Under the pieces are notes generated by a model that did no database searches, was not told where the DNA came from, and worked only from the letters and a program-made list of their open reading frames with translations. Positions 9,365-63,316 of a stretch of DNA of 64,000 nt are shown here, piece by piece. How positions within the stretch are numbered: position 1 is the stretch's first letter; every line of letters begins with the position of its first letter. Both the position numbers and the translations under genes were made by a program. Source of the stretch: a virus; the IMG/VR virus record IMGVR_UViG_3300042691_052885, positions 1 to 64,000 of that record. One strand, 5' to 3'.

Positions 9365-10972
9365 ATGGCAGGATTTATTGATAGAGTAGGTACAAACCCT
9401 ATATTTGGACAAATATCCAAAAGTTTGAAAAACCTATCGTCACTCGGCATGAAATACGAGGACATGGTGGTTAAACAATCTCGAGCAGTCGGTGTTACCG
9501 AAGCCGAGTTTGGATTGCAGGGTTACTTACCCGAAGAGTTTCTGTATTCCCTTGCGTTATCTGACGTTGGTCAAAAGAAGTTTATTGCATTTTTTGATAA
9601 GGACTATAAGTCAAGAAGAGATTATCTTCGTAAGTTTGCAATGAATCCAGAAATTGAATTCATTCTTGATACAGTGGCAGATGAAGCCATTGTATACGAT
9701 GACACTAATTTCTTTGCAGAAATTGATACCACTCTCCTAAAAGGTATTTTGGATCCGGAAAATGCTAAAGAGATCTTAAATGAAATTAATGCAACCTTCC
9801 GAAAAACATATGCTCACTTTCACTTTAATGAAGGCCATGATGCATGGGGCTATTTCAGACAGTTTTTGATTGATGGCTTTCTTGCATTTGAAATTATTTA
9901 TGATCCCGAAGGAAAGAACGTAATTGGTTTCAAAGAACTTGATGCTACTTCTCTTCGTCCTGGCGTAGAAAAGAGCGGCGATAATATCTATCGCAAAATC
10001 TGGGTACAGTACGAGGATATTCCTTCAATGAAACGCGTACTCCTTGATTCTCAGGTAATTTACATTTCATATGCCAAAGGTAATTTTACAGGACGTATTT
10101 CCTACGCAGAACGTCTGGTTCGTTCGTTTAACCTATTGCGTATCATGGAAAACAGCCGTGTAATTTGGAACATTATGAACAGTAGTTTCCGTCTTAAAAT
10201 GGTGGTTCCTATTGGTACTAAATCTCCGCAAAAGGCTAAGGAGAGCTTGGCAGAAATGATGGCAATCTATAAGGAAGATATCTCTCTTAACTATGATTCA
10301 GGCGAACTTACGGTAAACGGAAAGCCTGCAATGCAGTTCTATAAAAACTATCTCTTCCCGTCAAAGAATGGCGAACAGCCCGAGATTGAAACGATTGGCG
10401 GGGATGGCTATGATCTTAGCGATACTGATGCGTTGAAATACTTTGAGGACAAATTAAAGATGGACTCAAAAATTCCATTTAGCCGTTTTGACAAATCACA
10501 AGATGGTGGATCTTTCAGTATTAGTTCTGACGGAATGGCTCGTGATGAAATAAGGTTTGCCCGCTTTATCAACCGTTTACGTTCGGTATTCCAAGAAGTG
10601 CTGGTTAAACCGGTGTTCTTACAAATCGGCATTAATCATCCGGAACTTGCTGAAGATGAATTGTTCAAATCTGCAATTGCTCTTAAATACATTACCGATA
10701 ACCTATTTGAGGAAATGAAGGAAATGGATGTATTAGAGAAACGTTCATCCTTTATCCAGTCAATGATGGGAATCAACGAAAAACAACCAGATTCTACCGG
10801 TATGATGCAAGACGTTCCGTACTTTGATCCTAAGTTCTTAATTGAAAAGTATTTAGGTCTGACTAAAAATGATATTGATCGTAATGAAGCTTACAAGGAG
10901 GAGCAAAAAATTAAAAATGATGCTGCAATGAAAGCCGCAGCACAAGCCTCTGGAATGGCAGGCATGATGTAA
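9365..10972 (+). CDS. 20: Portal vertex protein gp20
   Basis: Dodecameric portal through which DNA enters and leaves the head and on which the prohead and neck assemble. The 535-aa protein (T4 gp20: 524) shows the gp20 pattern: NPEIEFILDTVADEAIVYDD, LNEINATFRKTYAHF near 140, WGYFRQFLIDGFLAFEIIYD, LDATSLRPG, YAERLVRSFNLLRIMENSRVIW, and the crown/clip section PFSRFDKSQDGGSFS with RFARFINRLRSVFQEVLVKPVF. A Met/Ala-rich tail ends it. A terminator-promoter module follows 8 nt after the stop, so this ends the late head operon. Confidence 0.9.
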   Translation: MAGFIDRVGTNPIFGQISKSLKNLSSLGMKYEDMVVKQSRAVGVTEAEFGLQGYLPEEFLYSLALSDVGQKKFIAFFDKDYKSRRDYLRKFAMNPEIEFILDTVADEAIVYDDTNFFAEIDTTLLKGILDPENAKEILNEINATFRKTYAHFHFNEGHDAWGYFRQFLIDGFLAFEIIYDPEGKNVIGFKELDATSLRPGVEKSGDNIYRKIWVQYEDIPSMKRVLLDSQVIYISYAKGNFTGRISYAERLVRSFNLLRIMENSRVIWNIMNSSFRLKMVVPIGTKSPQKAKESLAEMMAIYKEDISLNYDSGELTVNGKPAMQFYKNYLFPSKNGEQPEIETIGGDGYDLSDTDALKYFEDKLKMDSKIPFSRFDKSQDGGSFSISSDGMARDEIRFARFINRLRSVFQEVLVKPVFLQIGINHPELAEDELFKSAIALKYITDNLFEEMKEMDVLEKRSSFIQSMMGINEKQPDSTGMMQDVPYFDPKFLIEKYLGLTKNDIDRNEAYKEEQKIKNDAAMKAAAQASGMAGMM

Positions 10973-26510: not shown

Positions 26511-29500
26511 ATGGCAGCAAGAGATACCGCTCTTCTCGGTGAAATCCTTAGTACGCAAAAAGCAATTCTTGCTAAGCTCAATGAAATGGGCCGGGAAAAG
26601 GAAGATGAGAAAAAAGCTGGAGCGCCTGGCTCGCCAAATGTTCCAGGTGCACCAAATACACAGATTCAAAATGGGGGTGGCGTTGGCGGTTTTAACGAAA
26701 TGCTTGCTGAGCTTAAGAGTCTGAATGAAACAAATAAAGAGCAGCTCACAGTATTAAAAAGTATTGACAAAAAAATTGCAGGCGGATCTGGTACTGGTGG
26801 CGGCATAAAGGTTGATAATACCATAGGAGAAAAACTAGAATCAATTGGCGGCGGTATGGTATCGTTGGCAGTTGGCATGGTTGCCTTAGTTGGCGGATTG
26901 CTGTTTACTCTTTTGTTGGTTCCAGCCGCGCCATTTCTTTTAATCTCCTTGACGGTATTAGCGCTATCAATAAAAGTGCTGACCTCAATATATGAAAAGT
27001 TAGGAGGCGAAGAATTTGCACAGACAATAGTAAACGGAAAGAAGGCCTTGTTTGGCATGGCAACTGGCATAGGAATGTTTACGCTTTCCATTGTGTTGTC
27101 TTCACTTGCACTTGAATTAGTAAGTGGTGGTCAGTTAGCCGTTCTTGGATTAACGATGGTTGGTTTTGCTGGTCTGTTTTTCTTATTAGGAAAAGGCGGC
27201 GAAACTATTCAAAAAGGAGCAAAGGCAGCCGCATGGATGGGAATTGGAATGGCTTCAATTGCTCTTGGTATAGTTTCCCTTGCAATTGGTATCAGAGCAG
27301 CCGGCGAAATACTAACGGGCAACGGGGCAAACGCATTAGTTGGCGGTCTTGCTGCTATTGGTATAGTATCGGTATCAGCAATTGTTTTTGGGATAATCGG
27401 CCTTGCTGGAAATACTATACGAGAAGGCGCAATGACGGTGGGTGTTATGGGTCTTGGACTTGCTGCATTTGGTCTTGGACTTGCGGTTTATCTTACACAA
27501 ATTGCTGGAATTCTTGGTGTTGGCGGCGGCGGAATTGCAGGCGGTACAAAAATATCTGGAGGATTCTTTGAAACCGTAGGATCCATGTTAGTTGGTCTTG
27601 GCGTAATTGCAGTAGGTGCAGTAACCCTTGCCTTATACGGAACTATATTTGCTCTTGCCGGGCAGGCTGAATTAGGAATACCCGAAGCCATTTTGATGGG
27701 ATCAATATCAATGGCAGCGGCTTCTCTGTCTCTTATAGTTTTTGGGTTTGGACTTGATTACTATTTAGGTGTGGTTGCTAAACATGCCGGAGTATCTGGC
27801 GAAGGTAAAGAAATGTCAATTACCGCGGAATCTTTTGTTAGCGGTGGAGTTGTAATGGCTGGAGGCTTAGGTCTTCTTTTAGGCGTTGGTAGTTTGTTTG
27901 CGCTAGCAGGTACGGTATCTCCGCTTATTATTTTAGGAGCAGCTGCAATCGGTGCTACTGGAGTGGCAATACTTTCATTAGGATTTGGCATTAATAAGTT
28001 TATGGAACTGGTGCCGCCTGGCTCAAATATAGGAGAAGAGCTGGAAACAAATCTTGTAACTATACGGGATGCCATGCTGGCATTTGTAGGTCAAGAGGAT
28101 ATTAATAGTGGTGGAGTTGTTGGCGCGTTCAAAGGGCTTCTTAAAGGGGCAGCAACTGGTGGCGCATTAGCTTTCGCTATATTAAATGCCATGATGTTAG
28201 GCCCGGCACTTAGCAGTATTGCTTCGGGTATTGGATCATGGGCAAATCTTCAGAACATTCCAAAAATTAAAGGTTATGACGATAAAGGTCAACCGATATA
28301 TGATACTACACAAACTGCAAATGTTGATCAGGCATTAAAGAATATAACTGAGTACTTACCAAAAATAATGCAGCCGTTTGTGGATTTGTCAAATACCGCA
28401 AATCTGCAACAGGAAGAAAGCCTGCTTTCAATGATGACTGGAATTAATTTCGGTACATCACCGTTTAATCGAGGTATACGCGCTGCGGCTGGTATTGGTG
28501 AAACCTTAAGTTCAATTGCTCAAGGTTTAAGCGTATTTTCAAATCTTACGCAAGCCCCAAAAATAATAGGTTACGACGACAGAGGTCAGCCTATTTTTGA
28601 TAAAGGCCAGACTGTTAATATGCTGGATGCAACCAAGAATCTATTTGATATTCTTAGTGTTGATGGTCCAGGCAGTGTAATTGCTCCGTTTGTAAATTTA
28701 TCAAAAGAGGCAGGACTACAAGAAGGTGGTTCTTGGCTGAAAATGATAATAGGCACAGATTTTGGTTCTTCTCCTTTTGAACGCGGTATAACTATCAGTG
28801 GAAAAATTGGAGCAACCTTAAGTGCAATTGCAAAAGGTGTAGGTGTATTTGCAAATTTAACGCAAGCTCCACTAATTACTGGGTATGACGAAAACGGGCA
28901 ACCTATTTTTGGTGGAACCATTAATGCATTAGATGCAATCGGCAATTTAGGAAAGATTCTTGGTACAACCGGTGAAGGTAGTTTGGTTGCTCCGTTTATT
29001 GCTCTTGGGCAAAACGCTGCACTCGATGAACCGTTTTCGCTTGGCGGATACATGATGAAAATGATGTACGGTGTTTCCACTGGTGAATCCGATTTTGATA
29101 AAGGTTTGCGAGTTGCGCTATCAATGGGAGAAGTGGTATCAAATTTTGGAGCGGGCTTAGGGCAGCTTGCAAATCTTGCCTCCATTCCAGTAATTAAAAG
29201 CTATGATAAACAAGGTCGTCCAGTTTACGGCGAACCAATAAACGGCCTATCTGCAATTTCCAATTTAGGAACTATAATGGGTCAGTTAATGCAAGAATTT
29301 GCAAAGGCGTCCAAAACCATTGGCCCATACGGGGATCCCGAATCAATGGAAGCAATCGGTCCACTTGTTAGTGGAGTTCTTGGTGGAATTGTGGAATCAC
29401 TAGATATTTTCTCCAATCCGGATAAGCTTAAGAAGATAAAAGGTTACGATGCAAATGGCAAGCCAATCTATTATGAAGATCAGTTTGTAAGCGTCAATCA

Positions 29501-30446
29501 GGTAATAACAAATATGATTAATGTTATTACACGAATGGTAAAAGCTTTAGCAGATCCTGCAATTGTAGACGCGTTAGATGAACTTGATCTTGCGGATGAT
29601 GGAATGGAAATTGGACCGTTCTTAACGCAATTCATAGAGCCAATACAAAAATTAGTCGAAGTTGAAAAGACCGCTGGCAATACTCTTAATAACATTGGTT
29701 GGGGAATTGGTGAAGGCATTAAATACATTGCAATTGCTGCTAAATTTACCCAAGAAGCCAACATTCAAAGCAGCCTAAAAGATGTAGGTAAAGGACTTGG
29801 AGTATACGCTGAGAGTTTAGGTGAATTGGCAGAGGTTGCTACTGATATTAAAGAAAAGGAATTAGATCCATTTAAGTCAATTTATTCTACACTAGAAATA
29901 AATGTAAAAGATCCCAAGAAGAGAACTTATCTTGCACAGTTTACTGATGAAATTACTCGTCTGTCCTGGACCGCTACCGCGTTTGAAAAGTTTGTAAACT
30001 CTTTTGGAAAAATGGCAAAGGACATGAAAATCTTTGCTGAAAACTTTAAGATTATGGATTCCGACGCTATTAATGCGTTTAGCACCTGGACAGAATCTAT
30101 TGTTACCTTAAGCACAGCAAACCCTGAAACGTTTTCCGCAAATGTTATCACTGCTAATAAAGCTATTAATGCCGGATTTGGAATGAATGATGGAAATACC
30201 GGTACGATGGAACCATCCGATGCTGTAACTGGAAATGTACCTGCCGCGCAAAAAACGGCGGCAATTAAGGACGCTAATAATCCAAACGCGGCAGCAGCTC
30301 CTGGCGTAGCAAAGACAGAAAAACCTGGTACTATTGATTACGCAAAATTGCAGCAAGCGTTTCAAGCAGCTCTGGAAGCTGCAACTGTTGACGTTAAGGT
30401 ATCATCCACTGATGCCGAAATAATAATAGGAAACAGAAGAAAATAA
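26511..30446 (+). CDS. Tape-measure-like tail protein
   Basis: 1311-aa protein in the tail operon behind the chaperone-like genes; a tape measure sets tail length and sits inside the tube. Residues 1-95 are a charged coiled-coil start with a Gly-rich linker. About 110-520 contain roughly ten hydrophobic Gly/Ala-rich segments (MVSLAVGMVALVGGLLFTLLL and similar) typical of tape measures that later enter the host membrane. About 580-1000 hold five imperfect repeats around a GYDxxGQPIxx motif. The C-terminal 300 are helical and soluble. T4 gp29 is 590 aa without such segments, so this resembles siphophage tape measures more. At about 1.5 angstrom per residue, the length implies a tail near 200 nm. 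Confidence 0.72.
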   Translation: MAARDTALLGEILSTQKAILAKLNEMGREKEDEKKAGAPGSPNVPGAPNTQIQNGGGVGGFNEMLAELKSLNETNKEQLTVLKSIDKKIAGGSGTGGGIKVDNTIGEKLESIGGGMVSLAVGMVALVGGLLFTLLLVPAAPFLLISLTVLALSIKVLTSIYEKLGGEEFAQTIVNGKKALFGMATGIGMFTLSIVLSSLALELVSGGQLAVLGLTMVGFAGLFFLLGKGGETIQKGAKAAAWMGIGMASIALGIVSLAIGIRAAGEILTGNGANALVGGLAAIGIVSVSAIVFGIIGLAGNTIREGAMTVGVMGLGLAAFGLGLAVYLTQIAGILGVGGGGIAGGTKISGGFFETVGSMLVGLGVIAVGAVTLALYGTIFALAGQAELGIPEAILMGSISMAAASLSLIVFGFGLDYYLGVVAKHAGVSGEGKEMSITAESFVSGGVVMAGGLGLLLGVGSLFALAGTVSPLIILGAAAIGATGVAILSLGFGINKFMELVPPGSNIGEELETNLVTIRDAMLAFVGQEDINSGGVVGAFKGLLKGAATGGALAFAILNAMMLGPALSSIASGIGSWANLQNIPKIKGYDDKGQPIYDTTQTANVDQALKNITEYLPKIMQPFVDLSNTANLQQEESLLSMMTGINFGTSPFNRGIRAAAGIGETLSSIAQGLSVFSNLTQAPKIIGYDDRGQPIFDKGQTVNMLDATKNLFDILSVDGPGSVIAPFVNLSKEAGLQEGGSWLKMIIGTDFGSSPFERGITISGKIGATLSAIAKGVGVFANLTQAPLITGYDENGQPIFGGTINALDAIGNLGKILGTTGEGSLVAPFIALGQNAALDEPFSLGGYMMKMMYGVSTGESDFDKGLRVALSMGEVVSNFGAGLGQLANLASIPVIKSYDKQGRPVYGEPINGLSAISNLGTIMGQLMQEFAKASKTIGPYGDPESMEAIGPLVSGVLGGIVESLDIFSNPDKLKKIKGYDANGKPIYYEDQFVSVNQVITNMINVITRMVKALADPAIVDALDELDLADDGMEIGPFLTQFIEPIQKLVEVEKTAGNTLNNIGWGIGEGIKYIAIAAKFTQEANIQSSLKDVGKGLGVYAESLGELAEVATDIKEKELDPFKSIYSTLEINVKDPKKRTYLAQFTDEITRLSWTATAFEKFVNSFGKMAKDMKIFAENFKIMDSDAINAFSTWTESIVTLSTANPETFSANVITANKAINAGFGMNDGNTGTMEPSDAVTGNVPAAQKTAAIKDANNPNAAAAPGVAKTEKPGTIDYAKLQQAFQAALEAATVDVKVSSTDAEIIIGNRRK
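28262..29480 (+). repeat. Five imperfect protein repeats in the tape-measure gene
   Basis: The core IxGYDxxGQPIxx is encoded at about 28262, 28559, 28872, 29190 and 29433. Spacing is 297, 313, 318 and 243 nt. Each core is preceded by a SxxANLxxxP segment and followed by an NxLxAxxNL helix. The DNA copies have diverged, so the repeats are old or under protein-level selection. Confidence 0.75.
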
Positions 30447-33425: not shown

Positions 33426-34049
33426 ATGTCAAAAACGAAATCACCGCTACAAGAATTAGGAATCAATTTTTTCAACTCGAGATCTGAATCAGATTTCAAC
33501 AAAGTTTACTACCGACTAAAGCCTACCGTAAACTATTACCTTCGCGATTTGCTACCATCATTTGATGATCGCGAGGAAGCACTAGCAAATACCTTTTCAA
33601 AAGTATGGACTAAAATTCATATGTATGATCCGTATTGGAATTTCAGTACCTGGGTTTACCGTATTGCTCGTAACGAGGCTCTTCTTATGTTAAGGCATAC
33701 TCGTCGAAATTATTCTATTCAAGCAATGGAAGAACGTGGAATTAAAATGGATTCTAAAGTAGCGCCAGTCCAACCGCAATATGAAAGCAACTCGCAAAAT
33801 CTTGATGCTATTGATTCCCTTTATGATTTTGCAATTACCGAAATCTCTAATTTGCCAGAAACATATCGAATTGTAATGGAAAAGCGCGAGATTGAAAAGA
33901 AAAAATACGAGGATATATCTGCTGAACTAGGGTGGAAACACAATACCGTAAGAACTCGCATCCGTAAAGGTCGCGAACTCTTAAAGAAAAGTTTATTGGA
34001 AAAATATCCACAACTTGTACGTGATTTTGAAAAACAAGAAGAAATATGA
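33426..34049 (+). CDS. ECF-type RNA polymerase sigma factor
   Basis: 207-aa sigma-70-family factor with the two-domain ECF layout. Region 2 includes DREEALANTFSKVWTKIHMYDPYWNFSTWVYRIARNEALLMLR (about 47-90), with the conserved Trp/Arg helix that melts the -10. Region 4 is ITEISNLPETYRIVMEKREIEKKKYEDISAELGWKHNTVRTRIRKGRELLKKSL (about 138-192), a helix-turn-helix that reads the -35. The phage also encodes gp55, so it carries two different sigma factors. This one is in an early-type operon and may control the AAAACTTT class or another set. The next gene overlaps by ATGA. Confidence 0.88.
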   Translation: MSKTKSPLQELGINFFNSRSESDFNKVYYRLKPTVNYYLRDLLPSFDDREEALANTFSKVWTKIHMYDPYWNFSTWVYRIARNEALLMLRHTRRNYSIQAMEERGIKMDSKVAPVQPQYESNSQNLDAIDSLYDFAITEISNLPETYRIVMEKREIEKKKYEDISAELGWKHNTVRTRIRKGRELLKKSLLEKYPQLVRDFEKQEEI

Positions 34050-50453: not shown

Positions 50454-51203
50454 ATGCAGCAACTCTACGTTTACATACCTTCATATTTTGGTAGTGGAGA
50501 AAAACGCAAAGAGAGAATACGCATTCATAATCAGCAATTAAATTGGTTATTGCAGTCGCCAAGAGTAAAACACATTTTTGTGTGTTCACAGGATTACCAT
50601 TTTGGCGAAAAGAAAAAGCACGAAAAGATTTCATATATAGATCATCCACAAATTTCCCCTGCCTCTGCTCGAAATGTTTTGCTAGAACATTTTTACCAAT
50701 CGGAAAATCCATTAGCAGTTTTTCTTGACAACGACATTTTTTCCGAGGACTACAGTTTTGATTTCTTTTGCAGATTTGCAGATGCGGTAAAGGAACACAC
50801 GGATTACAATGTACTAATGTTTGCTGGGCAGAAAGAAAGTCCGTCCACAAAAATTGCATGCCGGGTTAGTCCTACCACTTCATTCATTACCCAGTTTTTC
50901 TTTATCACAAAGAACACTGAACAGTATTTTGATGAAGCGCTAAAAGATATGGAGGACTATGAATTCGGTATACGTTTAAGATGCAATGGAGGCCAGTTAT
51001 ACAGCGCAGAGGATCATGGATTTTATCATCACACGTACGAAAACAGCGTAATATACGAATCATGGAGCGAACGCCAAACAAAGTATTCCGGCGTTAGAAA
51101 TGAAATACACGAAAGATACGCAAAAATACTTGGGCTGCCTCTGTATCACTGGTTAGCTTTGCAGGAACACAAAAATATCACAATACAATTGAATAGGCTA
51201 TGA
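50454..51203 (+). CDS. Glycosyltransferase-like protein (GT-A fold)
   Basis: 249 aa. The N-terminus YVYIPSYFGSGEKRKERIRIHNQQL and the block LAVFLDNDIFSEDYSFDFF (about 87-105), with a DxD-type DND, suggest a GT-A nucleotide-sugar transferase. DMEDYEFGIRLRCNGGQLYSAEDHGFYHHT (about 165-195) resembles the acceptor side with an ED and His motif. It lies immediately before the secreted T9SS protein with an ATGA overlap, so it may modify that protein or another surface partner. Confidence 0.6.
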   Translation: MQQLYVYIPSYFGSGEKRKERIRIHNQQLNWLLQSPRVKHIFVCSQDYHFGEKKKHEKISYIDHPQISPASARNVLLEHFYQSENPLAVFLDNDIFSEDYSFDFFCRFADAVKEHTDYNVLMFAGQKESPSTKIACRVSPTTSFITQFFFITKNTEQYFDEALKDMEDYEFGIRLRCNGGQLYSAEDHGFYHHTYENSVIYESWSERQTKYSGVRNEIHERYAKILGLPLYHWLALQEHKNITIQLNRL

Positions 51204-52780
51204 AAAAACTATTACTACTCTTATTGCTAATTCCAACATTGGTTTTTGGCCAATGCGCTGGAAATCAGTCATTCACGCTTAACCCGGCGCCAGTAAACGG
51301 TACATATCAGCCAGGCACCGTAGTAACTATGTGTTATACCATGAATGGCTGGGACACTGGCTTTGGATCTAATTGGATAGAAGGATTCGGTATTACGTTA
51401 GGTCCAGGCTGGGTTTCCTATACTCCGGTATCAGGACCCGATGACTGTGGAGGCGCTGTTGTAGATCAGGGCTGGCTTTGGCTCGAGACCATAACCAATA
51501 ACGCAGGCACACTTACGGTAGGTCCAGGCTATTTTTATGAAGGTCCTACTGGCGTAATTGATGGCAACCCAGGAAATGATTGGGGAGACTTTGGTACCAA
51601 TTGTTTGTGGACTTTTTGCGTTCAATTACAGGTGTCTGACGAATGTGATCCATTATCGCTGTTAATAGAAGTAACGCCATACGCCGATGGCACAATGGGT
51701 AGCTGGGGAAATGAAGCTTGCTTTGATCCACCGTTTCAGGTGTTTGGAGGCACGATAGCCGGCGGTGATGTTAATACGGATCCAATAACTCCGTGCCCAG
51801 ATACGGTTTGCGATTTTACAACATCAGTATACGCTGTAAACAATACGCCAGGATCTATTTATGATTGGCAATTAAGTGGAGGAGGCGCGCTAACAACTGA
51901 TGGAGGACACGATGTTTCGGTATATTGGGGTGACGTTGATGGCGATTATATTTTAAGCGTTCAGGAAACCACTGCCGACGGCTGTGTAGGAGAGATCCAA
52001 ACTTGTAGTGTACACTTGGTTAATCATAATAATTTTGTAACTCTTGGCGTTTCCGAGTACCGTTTATGTCCAGGCGAAATAGTTCCTCTGTTTGCAAGTC
52101 CATCAAACGGAGTATGGACCGGTGAACATGTTGTAGGACCGTTTTTTAATGCCGATGAACCAGGCATATTTTATCCAACTTATCAATTGGATGTGTACGG
52201 TTGCCTATTTACTGGAACCACTACGGTATATGTAAGACCACCCTTTGAAGCGCTCCCAATTACGGCGTCAAGCAATTTTATTGATTTTTGCTATCAACCG
52301 TATCGCCAAATATATGAAGCACCGGATTCTGCGGGTTTTACATATACCTGGTATGTGGATGGAGAAATCTTTAATGGAGTTGGACCAATTATAGAAGTGG
52401 ATTATCCTGACAGCTCAATGAGCCATACTATAGAAGTTTTTGCAACCGATTCAATTGGATGTAAAAGCGAAAAAACTGGAATACTTATAGATACTCAAGC
52501 CTGCTTACGTCTGTATGTTCCTCAATCGTTTACGCCAAACAATGATGGATATAACGATGCTTTTACTGTTGTAGGATCAGCAATATATGAACCAAGACTT
52601 ACAGTGTATAATCGATGGGGAGCGCCTATATTCTTTTCAAATTCTCTAAGACCTGGGTGGAACGGCAATGATGGTAACGGATATTATTGCGAACCTGGAA
52701 TCTACCCCTGGTACTTTTCATACAAAGATGATCGAGGCTTTAACCATTCAACTCAAGGACATGTGGTACTTATTCGATAA
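51200..52780 (+). CDS. Secreted protein with T9SS/gliding-motility C-terminal sorting domain
   Basis: 526 aa. Residues 1-18 are a signal peptide (MKKLLLLLLLIPTLVFG then Q) of Bacteroidota style. Residues 20-190 form a Cys- and Trp-rich beta domain. About 195-435 contain PKD/Ig-like modules (VYAVNNTPGSIYDWQLSGGG; FTYTWYVDGEIFNG). The last 89 residues match the gliding-motility-associated C-terminal domain that directs type B export by the type IX secretion system: VPQSFTPNNDGYNDAFTV, LTVYNRWGAPIFFS, GWNGNDGNGYYCEPGIYPW, and a final strand ending VVLIR. Such cargo is crossed through the outer membrane by host machinery. In a phage genome it could modify the host surface, block adsorption or act in spread. 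Coupled to a glycosyltransferase-like gene. Confidence 0.9.
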   Translation: MKKLLLLLLLIPTLVFGQCAGNQSFTLNPAPVNGTYQPGTVVTMCYTMNGWDTGFGSNWIEGFGITLGPGWVSYTPVSGPDDCGGAVVDQGWLWLETITNNAGTLTVGPGYFYEGPTGVIDGNPGNDWGDFGTNCLWTFCVQLQVSDECDPLSLLIEVTPYADGTMGSWGNEACFDPPFQVFGGTIAGGDVNTDPITPCPDTVCDFTTSVYAVNNTPGSIYDWQLSGGGALTTDGGHDVSVYWGDVDGDYILSVQETTADGCVGEIQTCSVHLVNHNNFVTLGVSEYRLCPGEIVPLFASPSNGVWTGEHVVGPFFNADEPGIFYPTYQLDVYGCLFTGTTTVYVRPPFEALPITASSNFIDFCYQPYRQIYEAPDSAGFTYTWYVDGEIFNGVGPIIEVDYPDSSMSHTIEVFATDSIGCKSEKTGILIDTQACLRLYVPQSFTPNNDGYNDAFTVVGSAIYEPRLTVYNRWGAPIFFSNSLRPGWNGNDGNGYYCEPGIYPWYFSYKDDRGFNHSTQGHVVLIR

Positions 52781-61756: not shown

Positions 61757-61963
61757 ATGAATAACACAACAAATACTTACACATTCCTTGGAACCCGCTG
61801 GGTACCTGGTTACAACGATTTTGATTTTGATGATTTCACAATTATCGCTACCAATGAAACGGAGGCATGGGATATTCTTTGGAAATTGAGTGGAAGATTT
61901 ACCTGGGGAGAAGTCAACCTGGTGTACATTAACGGTGAGTTGGTTGAAAGGGAAAATTGTTAA
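61757..61963 (+). CDS. Hypothetical protein, 68 aa
   Basis: Single-gene unit between two terminator-promoter modules. Asp/Phe-rich (GYNDFDFDDFTIIATNETEAWD) with WGEVNLVYINGELV at the end; reminiscent of small phage barrels but unassigned. Its stop codon is part of the next GTTAATAAC element. Confidence 0.65.
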   Translation: MNNTTNTYTFLGTRWVPGYNDFDFDDFTIIATNETEAWDILWKLSGRFTWGEVNLVYINGELVERENC

Positions 61964-62026
61964 TAACTTTTGGCCAAAACATTTTTTTCTTTGGGTTTTT
62001 GGTATTATTTTTATCCTAACAAAATT
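61959..62026 (+). promoter_or_regulatory. Terminator-promoter module
   Basis: GTTAATAACTTT (61959-61970), 32 nt with a weaker stem (CCAAAA/TTTGGG) and T run, TATTATTTTTAT (62003-62014), CCTAACAAAATT, 9 nt before the RadA-like ATG. Confidence 0.72.
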
Positions 62027-62034
62027 AATCATAT

Positions 62035-63240
62035 ATGGAACTAACTGTTGCAAAACAAACATTCAAAAAGGTATCAGACATTGAGGTACCAGAAAAACTC
62101 TTTAACACCATCAAAACCGATTCTCCGGAACTGGACAATGTCCTTTCGGAAATAGGTGGTATGGTCCCATCGCAAGTTGTACTGGTAACGGGGAATCCTG
62201 GATCTGGAAAAACAACTCTTTGCGCGGTGGTAGGTTCCCGAATTGCGGAACGCGATTCCCGCCCGGTAGTTTTCCTTTCCTATGAAATGTCCGACTTCCA
62301 ATTAAAACTGCAGGCCAAGAAAATTGCAGGTTTCAATTCGCTGCTTGTAAGTACTCACGAGTTTCATACACAGCCTGGCGGTATTGATACCTTGTTCCAA
62401 GCCCTGGATAGTCTGGATCCATCAATGGTTATTGTGGACTCACTACAGAAAATGGCTTCTAAAATGCCAGATGGTCCAACCCGCGGACAAGTGGTTTTGG
62501 TGGAGCGGTTTACCAAATGGGCCAAGACCTCCTTTACGCCAGTTATGCTGATTGGCCACAACGATAAAGGTGGAAACTATGCAGGTCCATCGTTCCTCAA
62601 ACACGAGGTGGACTCACATATGACGGTATGGTTTGACAAGGAAATCCGTGAGCGTCTCTTTTCCATGAGTAAGAACCGTTTTGGTGGAAACATGGAAAGT
62701 TATTCTTTCCGCATCACTCCCGACGGAGTCTTTATCGGTTCGGAATGGTGGAATCTTGTAGACAGCCAGACTTCCGATGATGTTCGGGATATGATAATGG
62801 ACTACAAAGGCAGTTCCACTGGGGAATCGCTAAACTGGGAAAAGTTTAAGGATTCCGCGGAAACCTTGGTTTCCTACCTTAACCGTAAGCACGCCGAGCG
62901 GTTCCCGACAAACACCTTTATTGGTTCCACTGATAAGATCAAACTCACGTGGGAAGGCCGCCGTGCTTTTTGCAACTACAAAACTGGTCAAATCAATTTC
63001 GGTAAGAAGTTTTTTGATCGGGTAACTGACAAATCTTGGGATCGCGTAGGCTACCGTTCCGAGCGTCCGTTTATCCATGCACACGTAAAGAACAAGGAGG
63101 AGGCCGCCCTTTGGGTTATCCTACATGAATGGGTGCATCTCTTCAAAGGTTATCAGCATCATACCAAGAAAATGTGGAAAGAAATCTCTCGAATTGCAAA
63201 TGAGGAATCCTGGTTATGGTCTGTGCCTGCCACGGCATAA
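62035..63240 (+). CDS. RadA-like RecA-fold ATPase fused to HExxH metalloprotease-like domain
   Basis: 401 aa. Residues 25-265 are a RadA/Sms-like ATPase: Walker A GNPGSGKT (53-60), VVFLSYEMSDFQLKLQAKK (about 78-96), Walker B-type SMVIVDSLQKM (about 129-139), MLIGHNDKGGNYAGPSFLKHEVDSHM, and the RadA-specific KNRFGG (about 213-218). The RadA zinc finger and Lon-like domain are absent. In place of the latter, residues 300-401 read like a SprT/WLM-type zinc protease: a strand region WEGRRAFCNYKTGQINFGKKFF, then WVILHEWVHLFKGYQHHTKKMW with HExxH at 364-368 and His 375/376 as third ligand. RadA drives branch migration; SprT-like proteases cut DNA-protein crosslinks. The protein may combine both tasks. 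Own promoter. Confidence 0.82.
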   Translation: MELTVAKQTFKKVSDIEVPEKLFNTIKTDSPELDNVLSEIGGMVPSQVVLVTGNPGSGKTTLCAVVGSRIAERDSRPVVFLSYEMSDFQLKLQAKKIAGFNSLLVSTHEFHTQPGGIDTLFQALDSLDPSMVIVDSLQKMASKMPDGPTRGQVVLVERFTKWAKTSFTPVMLIGHNDKGGNYAGPSFLKHEVDSHMTVWFDKEIRERLFSMSKNRFGGNMESYSFRITPDGVFIGSEWWNLVDSQTSDDVRDMIMDYKGSSTGESLNWEKFKDSAETLVSYLNRKHAERFPTNTFIGSTDKIKLTWEGRRAFCNYKTGQINFGKKFFDRVTDKSWDRVGYRSERPFIHAHVKNKEEAALWVILHEWVHLFKGYQHHTKKMWKEISRIANEESWLWSVPATA

Positions 63241-63289: not shown

Positions 63290-63316
63290 TATTATTTTTA
63301 TTCTATCAAAATTAAT
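63290..63316 (+). promoter_or_regulatory. Promoter, TATTATTTTTAT-TCTATCAAA element without GTTAATAAC box at the usual place
   Basis: TATTATTTTTAT (63290-63301) and TCTATCAAAATTAAT match the downstream half of the modules. There is no hairpin and no GTTAATAACTTT 32 nt upstream (the site reads TAATATAAGATT). Instead GTTAA/TTAAC repeats at 63257-63282 crowd the region, which may be operator sites. Confidence 0.55.

Follow-up and report, generated by a model that had tools for sequence, protein, structure and literature searches.

A phage gene that joins a RadA-like ATPase core to a C-terminal zinc-peptidase-like domain

We describe a phage gene whose 401-residue product joins a RadA/Sms-type ATPase core to a C-terminal domain resembling the small zinc peptidases of the WLM/SprT/abylysin kind. 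The gene lies in a 64,000-nucleotide stretch (hereafter the window; positions 1 to 64,000 of virus record IMGVR_UViG_3300042691_052885), taken from a 66,254-base virus record. This architecture is well supported, and we rate it as novel in its pairing of two kinds that are each known; from it we infer a protease activity and its substrate. In our judgement, the chances are about even that the protein is a RadA-type hexameric translocase on single-stranded DNA equipped with WLM/SprT/abylysin-like proteases that cut proteins blocking the DNA.

The fusion is encoded by one frame at 62035..63240 on the plus strand, and every motif that the original prediction had located was found at its place: Walker A GNPGSGKT at residues 53–60, KNRFG at 213–217, HEWVH at 364–368, the pair H375-H376 and KMW at 379–381, with the numbering of K59 and E365 also right. 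Contig L001 matches the window without a difference across 5,408 bases. Contig L002 represents a second, independent phage, with other genes upstream of the fusion and an orthologue of 89% protein identity (dN/dS about 0.04). Given the identical sequence in L001 and the independent orthologue with its low dN/dS, the frame is no artefact of assembly; it is one intact, real gene. Taken half by half, dN/dS between the two phages is ~0.034 for the RadA part and ~0.040 for the C-terminal part, and thus both halves of the fusion are under purifying selection.

Directly upstream of the gene lies a repeated terminator-plus-promoter-like cassette (61957..62031, plus strand), and a further copy of the promoter-like core (63290..63310, plus strand) precedes the gene downstream. 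The window contains 11 copies of the core where 0.07 would be expected, and L002 has a similar element ahead of its fusion orthologue. As the core stands both before and after the fusion gene, the sequence suggests that the gene probably forms its own transcription unit. The cassette, a terminator hairpin followed by a promoter-like element (GTTAATAACTTT ... TATTATTTTTATNCTATCAAA), recurs before genes at window positions 10969, 33336, 38677, 39721, 42333, 47299, 49052, 59469, 61678, 61957 and 63288. The window also encodes a sigma-factor-like protein (33426-34049, plus strand) with Sigma70 regions 2 and 4, which possibly reads a phage promoter class.

The N-terminal half is a RadA/Sms-type RecA-fold ATPase core spanning residues 14–232 (62074..62730, plus strand), as judged from matches to RadA models and structures. 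The NCBIfam RadA model matches residues 8–232 at 4.6e-29, scoring 101.5 bits against a curated equivalog cut-off of 403 bits; the solved RadA structure PDB 5lkm matches at 5.9e-20, and the Pfam KaiC family at 3.5e-12. Identity to bacterial RadA/Sms is about 30%, with 57% of the query covered. Walker A (62191..62214), a catalytic-type glutamate, E84 (62284..62286; SYEMS, where RadA has SGEES), Walker B MVIVDS at residues 131–136 (62425..62442) and KNRFG (62671..62685), all on the plus strand, align with their counterparts in cellular RadA. Walker A and KNRFG each fall in a 26-residue run unchanged between the two phages, with only synonymous changes around Walker A. The segment FKKVSDIEVPEKLFNTIKT (residues 10–28; 62062..62118, plus strand), which alignments showed to be common to other phage RadA-like cores, sits at the site of the RadA inter-protomer clasp and, by analogy with RadA (PMC5512693), may act as such a clasp.

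It is in this core, with its Walker A, catalytic glutamate, Walker B and KNRFG, that the fusion resembles bacterial RadA/Sms, which has in addition a C4 zinc finger and a Lon-like domain; the fusion instead carries the zinc-peptidase-like domain. Its ORF starts at the core, with the first cysteine at residue 63 and no N-terminal C4 zinc finger, and RadA models and structures match nothing past residue 232, so that the Lon-like (S5 domain 2) domain is absent. Alignment of full-length cellular RadA thus bore out the earlier remark that both elements are missing, but their loss is not special to this protein. A scan of viral contigs turned up RadA-like cores of roughly 260–350 residues that have neither zinc finger nor Lon domain and end in variable tails (L012–L023), in many uncultivated phages. 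Three of the four Lon-less phage cores tested matched PHROG 26214, a family of unknown function. These proteins resemble the fusion in the core (24–30% identity), and several share an N-terminal VSDIExP segment; unlike the fusion, however, they have tails that are short or different in sequence, none of them with an HExxH. Since cores of this reduced type are common in uncultivated phages, the peculiarity of the fusion is its tail only.

The tail forms a WLM/SprT/abylysin-like zinc-peptidase-like domain at residues ~260–401 (62812..63237, plus strand), supported by a phmmer match to proabylysin, an AF2 model and VIA-align. It contains HEWVH (63124..63138, plus strand), with two predicted zinc ligands and the predicted catalytic E365, and HHTKKMW (residues 375–381; 63157..63177, plus strand), in which alignment to 4jiu marks H376 as the predicted third ligand. 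Proabylysin was the sole PDB sequence match of the domain (phmmer, E 0.016), and the alignment lays HEWVHLFKGYQHHTKKMW on HELAHLKAETSYHSSSFW with equal spacing, which makes H376 the likely third zinc ligand. The resulting pattern, HExxH-x7-H-x3-[FM]-W, has the spacing of abylysin. For an HExxH by itself the six frames of the window contain two where 2.9 are expected, a count not above chance; the longer pattern HExxH-x(5-12)-H-x3-[FMLYW][WKR] is expected 0.02 times in the six frames and was found once, in the fusion ORF. No Pfam, NCBIfam or PHROG model, including Pfam SprT-like (PF10263) and WLM, reached the domain at its cut-off, and the only Pfam match, at E 0.18, was to the M78 metallopeptidases, with 12.0 bits where the cut-off is 22. 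The proposal of a SprT/WLM-type fusion thus gains from the sequence, from purifying selection and from a fold predicted with moderate confidence, but no model of either family is reached, and membership of the domain in the SprT/WLM family is unproven.

The AF2 model of residues 260–401 has a pLDDT of 61 and a pTM of 0.64, with pLDDT rising to about 80 in the pair of helices that carry the predicted active site; the alignment behind it held fragments of SprT-like phage proteins chosen by a similar motif, which biases the model towards that fold. VIA-align gave Z scores of 7.8, 7.7 and 7.4 for Wss1, 7.8 for YbeY, 6.7 for abylysin, 6.5 for jannalysin, 6.2 for selecase and about 4 for IrrE/PprI, where a Z below 8 can be accounted for by a common arrangement. 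Almost all of the leading rows were small zinc enzymes. In Foldseek, abylysin was the top PDB match, with no E-value significant, and most of the named matches near the top of the viral library were SprT-like or IrrE-like. The structural comparison therefore yields a resemblance to Wss1 and abylysin, qualified by the tie of YbeY with Wss1, the pLDDT of 61 and the Foldseek E-values. Both lines of comparison lead to the minigluzincins abylysin and jannalysin and to the WLM protease Wss1, through the abylysin motif spacing and through the high places that Wss1 and abylysin take in the structural lists; the sequence similarity to these proteases is weak (E 0.016), however, and they stand without a RadA core. 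Two further attempts were discarded: a full-protein AF2 model built from two sequences reached a pLDDT of only 40, and splitting the SprT-like rows into fragments made the alignment worse.

Conservation points to the same residues. Residues 350–388, which take in the HExxH...MW helices, form the longest run unchanged between the two phages in the whole protein; its codons show 14 synonymous changes and none that alters an amino acid, and the next two longest hold KNRFG and Walker A; the predicted active regions are therefore its most constrained parts. If changes were placed uniformly in the C-terminal part, a run of at least 39 residues would arise in 2% of cases, which is support rather than proof, and the whole result is one comparison between the two distinct orthologues known. 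Conservation of the HExxH had been named as a check on the peptidase reading, and the motif is unchanged in L002, the one independent orthologue.

The fusion is rare. Scans of viral contigs located it on three contigs from two distinct phages; no relative of the C-terminal domain was detected in the cellular genome contigs scanned, the phage records searched held no such fusion, and a literature search for RadA with SprT or a metalloprotease found no report of one. The scans used short patterns that mostly reach close relatives, and distant examples may exist; distant cores, when aligned, proved too divergent to serve as a query for scanning. Several candidates were rejected. Scanning genome contigs with the core gave three loci, namely two full-length cellular RadA proteins and one SRP54/Ffh-like GTPase, none of them a fusion; a search of 395 Bacteroidota genomes yielded a single weak match, at a locus without a metallopeptidase-like HExxH; and a tblastn match in Aeromonas phage Atoyac23 (E 1) fell in a kinase-like frame with no HExxH seen and was taken as chance. 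A HEW pattern scan returned SprT-like phage proteins, chance matches and the fusion's own family, and a HEL scan returned one good free-standing protein (L106), whose motif reads HExxH-x7-H-x3-FW.

The SprT-like phage proteins form a compact family on 29 viral contigs, several of them above 300 kb (L074–L102; match at about 5001), with the signature HEWAHAxAWNH...HDASWGVAY and a Pfam SprT-like match below cut-off. They resemble the fusion tail in the HEW-x-H and in a similar order of strands and helices (hhalign probability 81%), a likeness that is partly selected, because the family was found by motif pattern. With the motif held fixed, 3 of 1000 shuffles scored as high as the tail did against this family, a modest similarity. 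Unlike H376 of the fusion, the conserved third histidine of the family comes later, in HDASWGVAY, and the flanking DNA examined held no RadA-like core. Because the similarity is modest and the third histidine is placed differently, we claim no direct kinship between this family and the fusion tail.

What such a protein might do can be considered from its cellular counterparts. Branch migration by E. coli RadA depends on its zinc finger as well as on Walker A and KNRFG (PMC4786428), and pneumococcal RadA is a hexameric single-stranded DNA helicase, in which the C-terminal Lon-like domain is inferred to stand at the front of the moving ring (PMC5512693). Wss1 and SPRTN, grouped with the minigluzincins, process proteins on DNA, with the ATPase Cdc48 as the partner of Wss1 (PMC4559962). 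Combining the RadA hexamer, the need for KNRFG and the Wss1/Cdc48 literature, we think of the fusion as a DNA-tracking protease. Its ATPase half is predicted to form a hexameric ring on single-stranded DNA, along which it would travel to power branch migration or unwinding in the manner of bacterial RadA. The peptidase-like domain would occupy the place of the Lon-like domain, putting up to six peptidase sites, presumably zinc-binding, on the face inferred as leading in pneumococcal RadA. During phage recombination or replication, these sites may then cut proteins that block the DNA, whether crosslinked, tightly bound or of host origin. That the fusion clears proteins from recombination intermediates, as first suggested, is thus a reasonable inference; the fuller version, in which a single polypeptide tracks DNA with a leading ring of WLM/SprT-like proteases and removes blocks or DNA–protein crosslinks from recombination or replication intermediates, is one that we hold tentatively, leaning somewhat against it. 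The requirement of RadA for its zinc finger and C-terminal domain, neither of which the fusion has, speaks against this reading. Wss1–Cdc48 and related DNA–protein-crosslink proteases offer a parallel: they likewise combine an ATPase with a small zinc protease on DNA-bound protein (PMC4559962), but as separate proteins and with an AAA+ unfoldase for the ATPase, whereas the fusion is one chain with a RecA-fold DNA motor. If active, the fusion would offer a simple one-chain model for coupling DNA translocation to proteolysis, for which yeast uses separate Wss1 and Cdc48.

Other readings have to be weighed against this one. The protease might act on proteins of the host or of its defences, the ATPase core serving only to target it to DNA, which would make the fusion a factor for phage takeover or counter-defence. 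SprT-like peptidases do occur in jumbo phages, and their patchy distribution has led to the suggestion that they cut host proteins (PMC7824862); the fusion, too, is rare and patchy and has its own promoter-like cassette. We nevertheless consider this reading unlikely, as the fusion has kept the full set of motor motifs of an active RadA, more than targeting alone would call for, and no host target is known. We give somewhat less credence to a C-terminal domain whose peptidase fold is dead or plays a structural part, holding the ring together without catalysis. There is a precedent at the same position in the Lon-like domain of RadA, which has lost the catalytic residues of Lon and serves as a hexamer scaffold (PMC4786428, PMC5512693), and a domain put in its stead could do likewise; the fusion has at that position a different protease fold that is apparently intact, with the catalytic glutamate and each of the three predicted ligands in place and the active-site helices its most constrained part. 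Moreover, other phage RadA-like cores, such as the 260-residue L012, manage without a folded C-terminal scaffold.

The remaining two readings concern the identity of the C-terminal domain, and we find both improbable. In one, the fusion is a DNA-damage switch of the IrrE/PprI kind, whose ATPase senses single-stranded DNA and whose peptidase cuts a repressor. In its favour, the one Pfam hint (M78, E 0.18) is to the IrrE-like family, the structural comparison lists IrrE/PprI, and the viral matches include IrrE-like phage proteins; the match to Wss1 and abylysin is better, though (Z 6.7–7.8, against about 4), and it is abylysin and its relatives that show the H-x3-[FM]-W signature. A shade more doubtful still is a YbeY-like metallonuclease, despite the tie with Wss1 at Z 7.8. 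The YbeY motif is H-x3-H-x5-H, and YbeY is not known to have the catalytic glutamate of HExxH; the stretch HLFKGYQH of the fusion recalls the H-L-x-G-Y-D-H of YbeY. In the fusion, however, that glutamate is present and unchanged, the spacing is longer than in the YbeY motif and places the third histidine as in abylysin, and the sequence matches are to peptidases only.

The window also encodes a terminase, a tail sheath protein, a clamp loader, a helicase-like protein and a phosphoesterase/ATPase that we read as gp46/47-like, a set that places the virus among the T4-like phages. The terminases nearest to that of the window include those of phages of Bacteroidota. A 526-residue phage ORF at 51200-52780 (plus strand) ends in a type IX secretion signal domain of the CHU_C type (1.9e-13), besides a weak PKD-like match; this indicates a host among the Bacteroidota, whose type IX secretion system would sort the phage protein. 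The host of this T4-like phage is thus probably a member of the Bacteroidota. Elsewhere in the window, a 1311-residue ORF (26511-30446), possibly a tape-measure-like protein, contains four copies of a 49-base repeat between 28242 and 29217, spaced about 300 bases apart.
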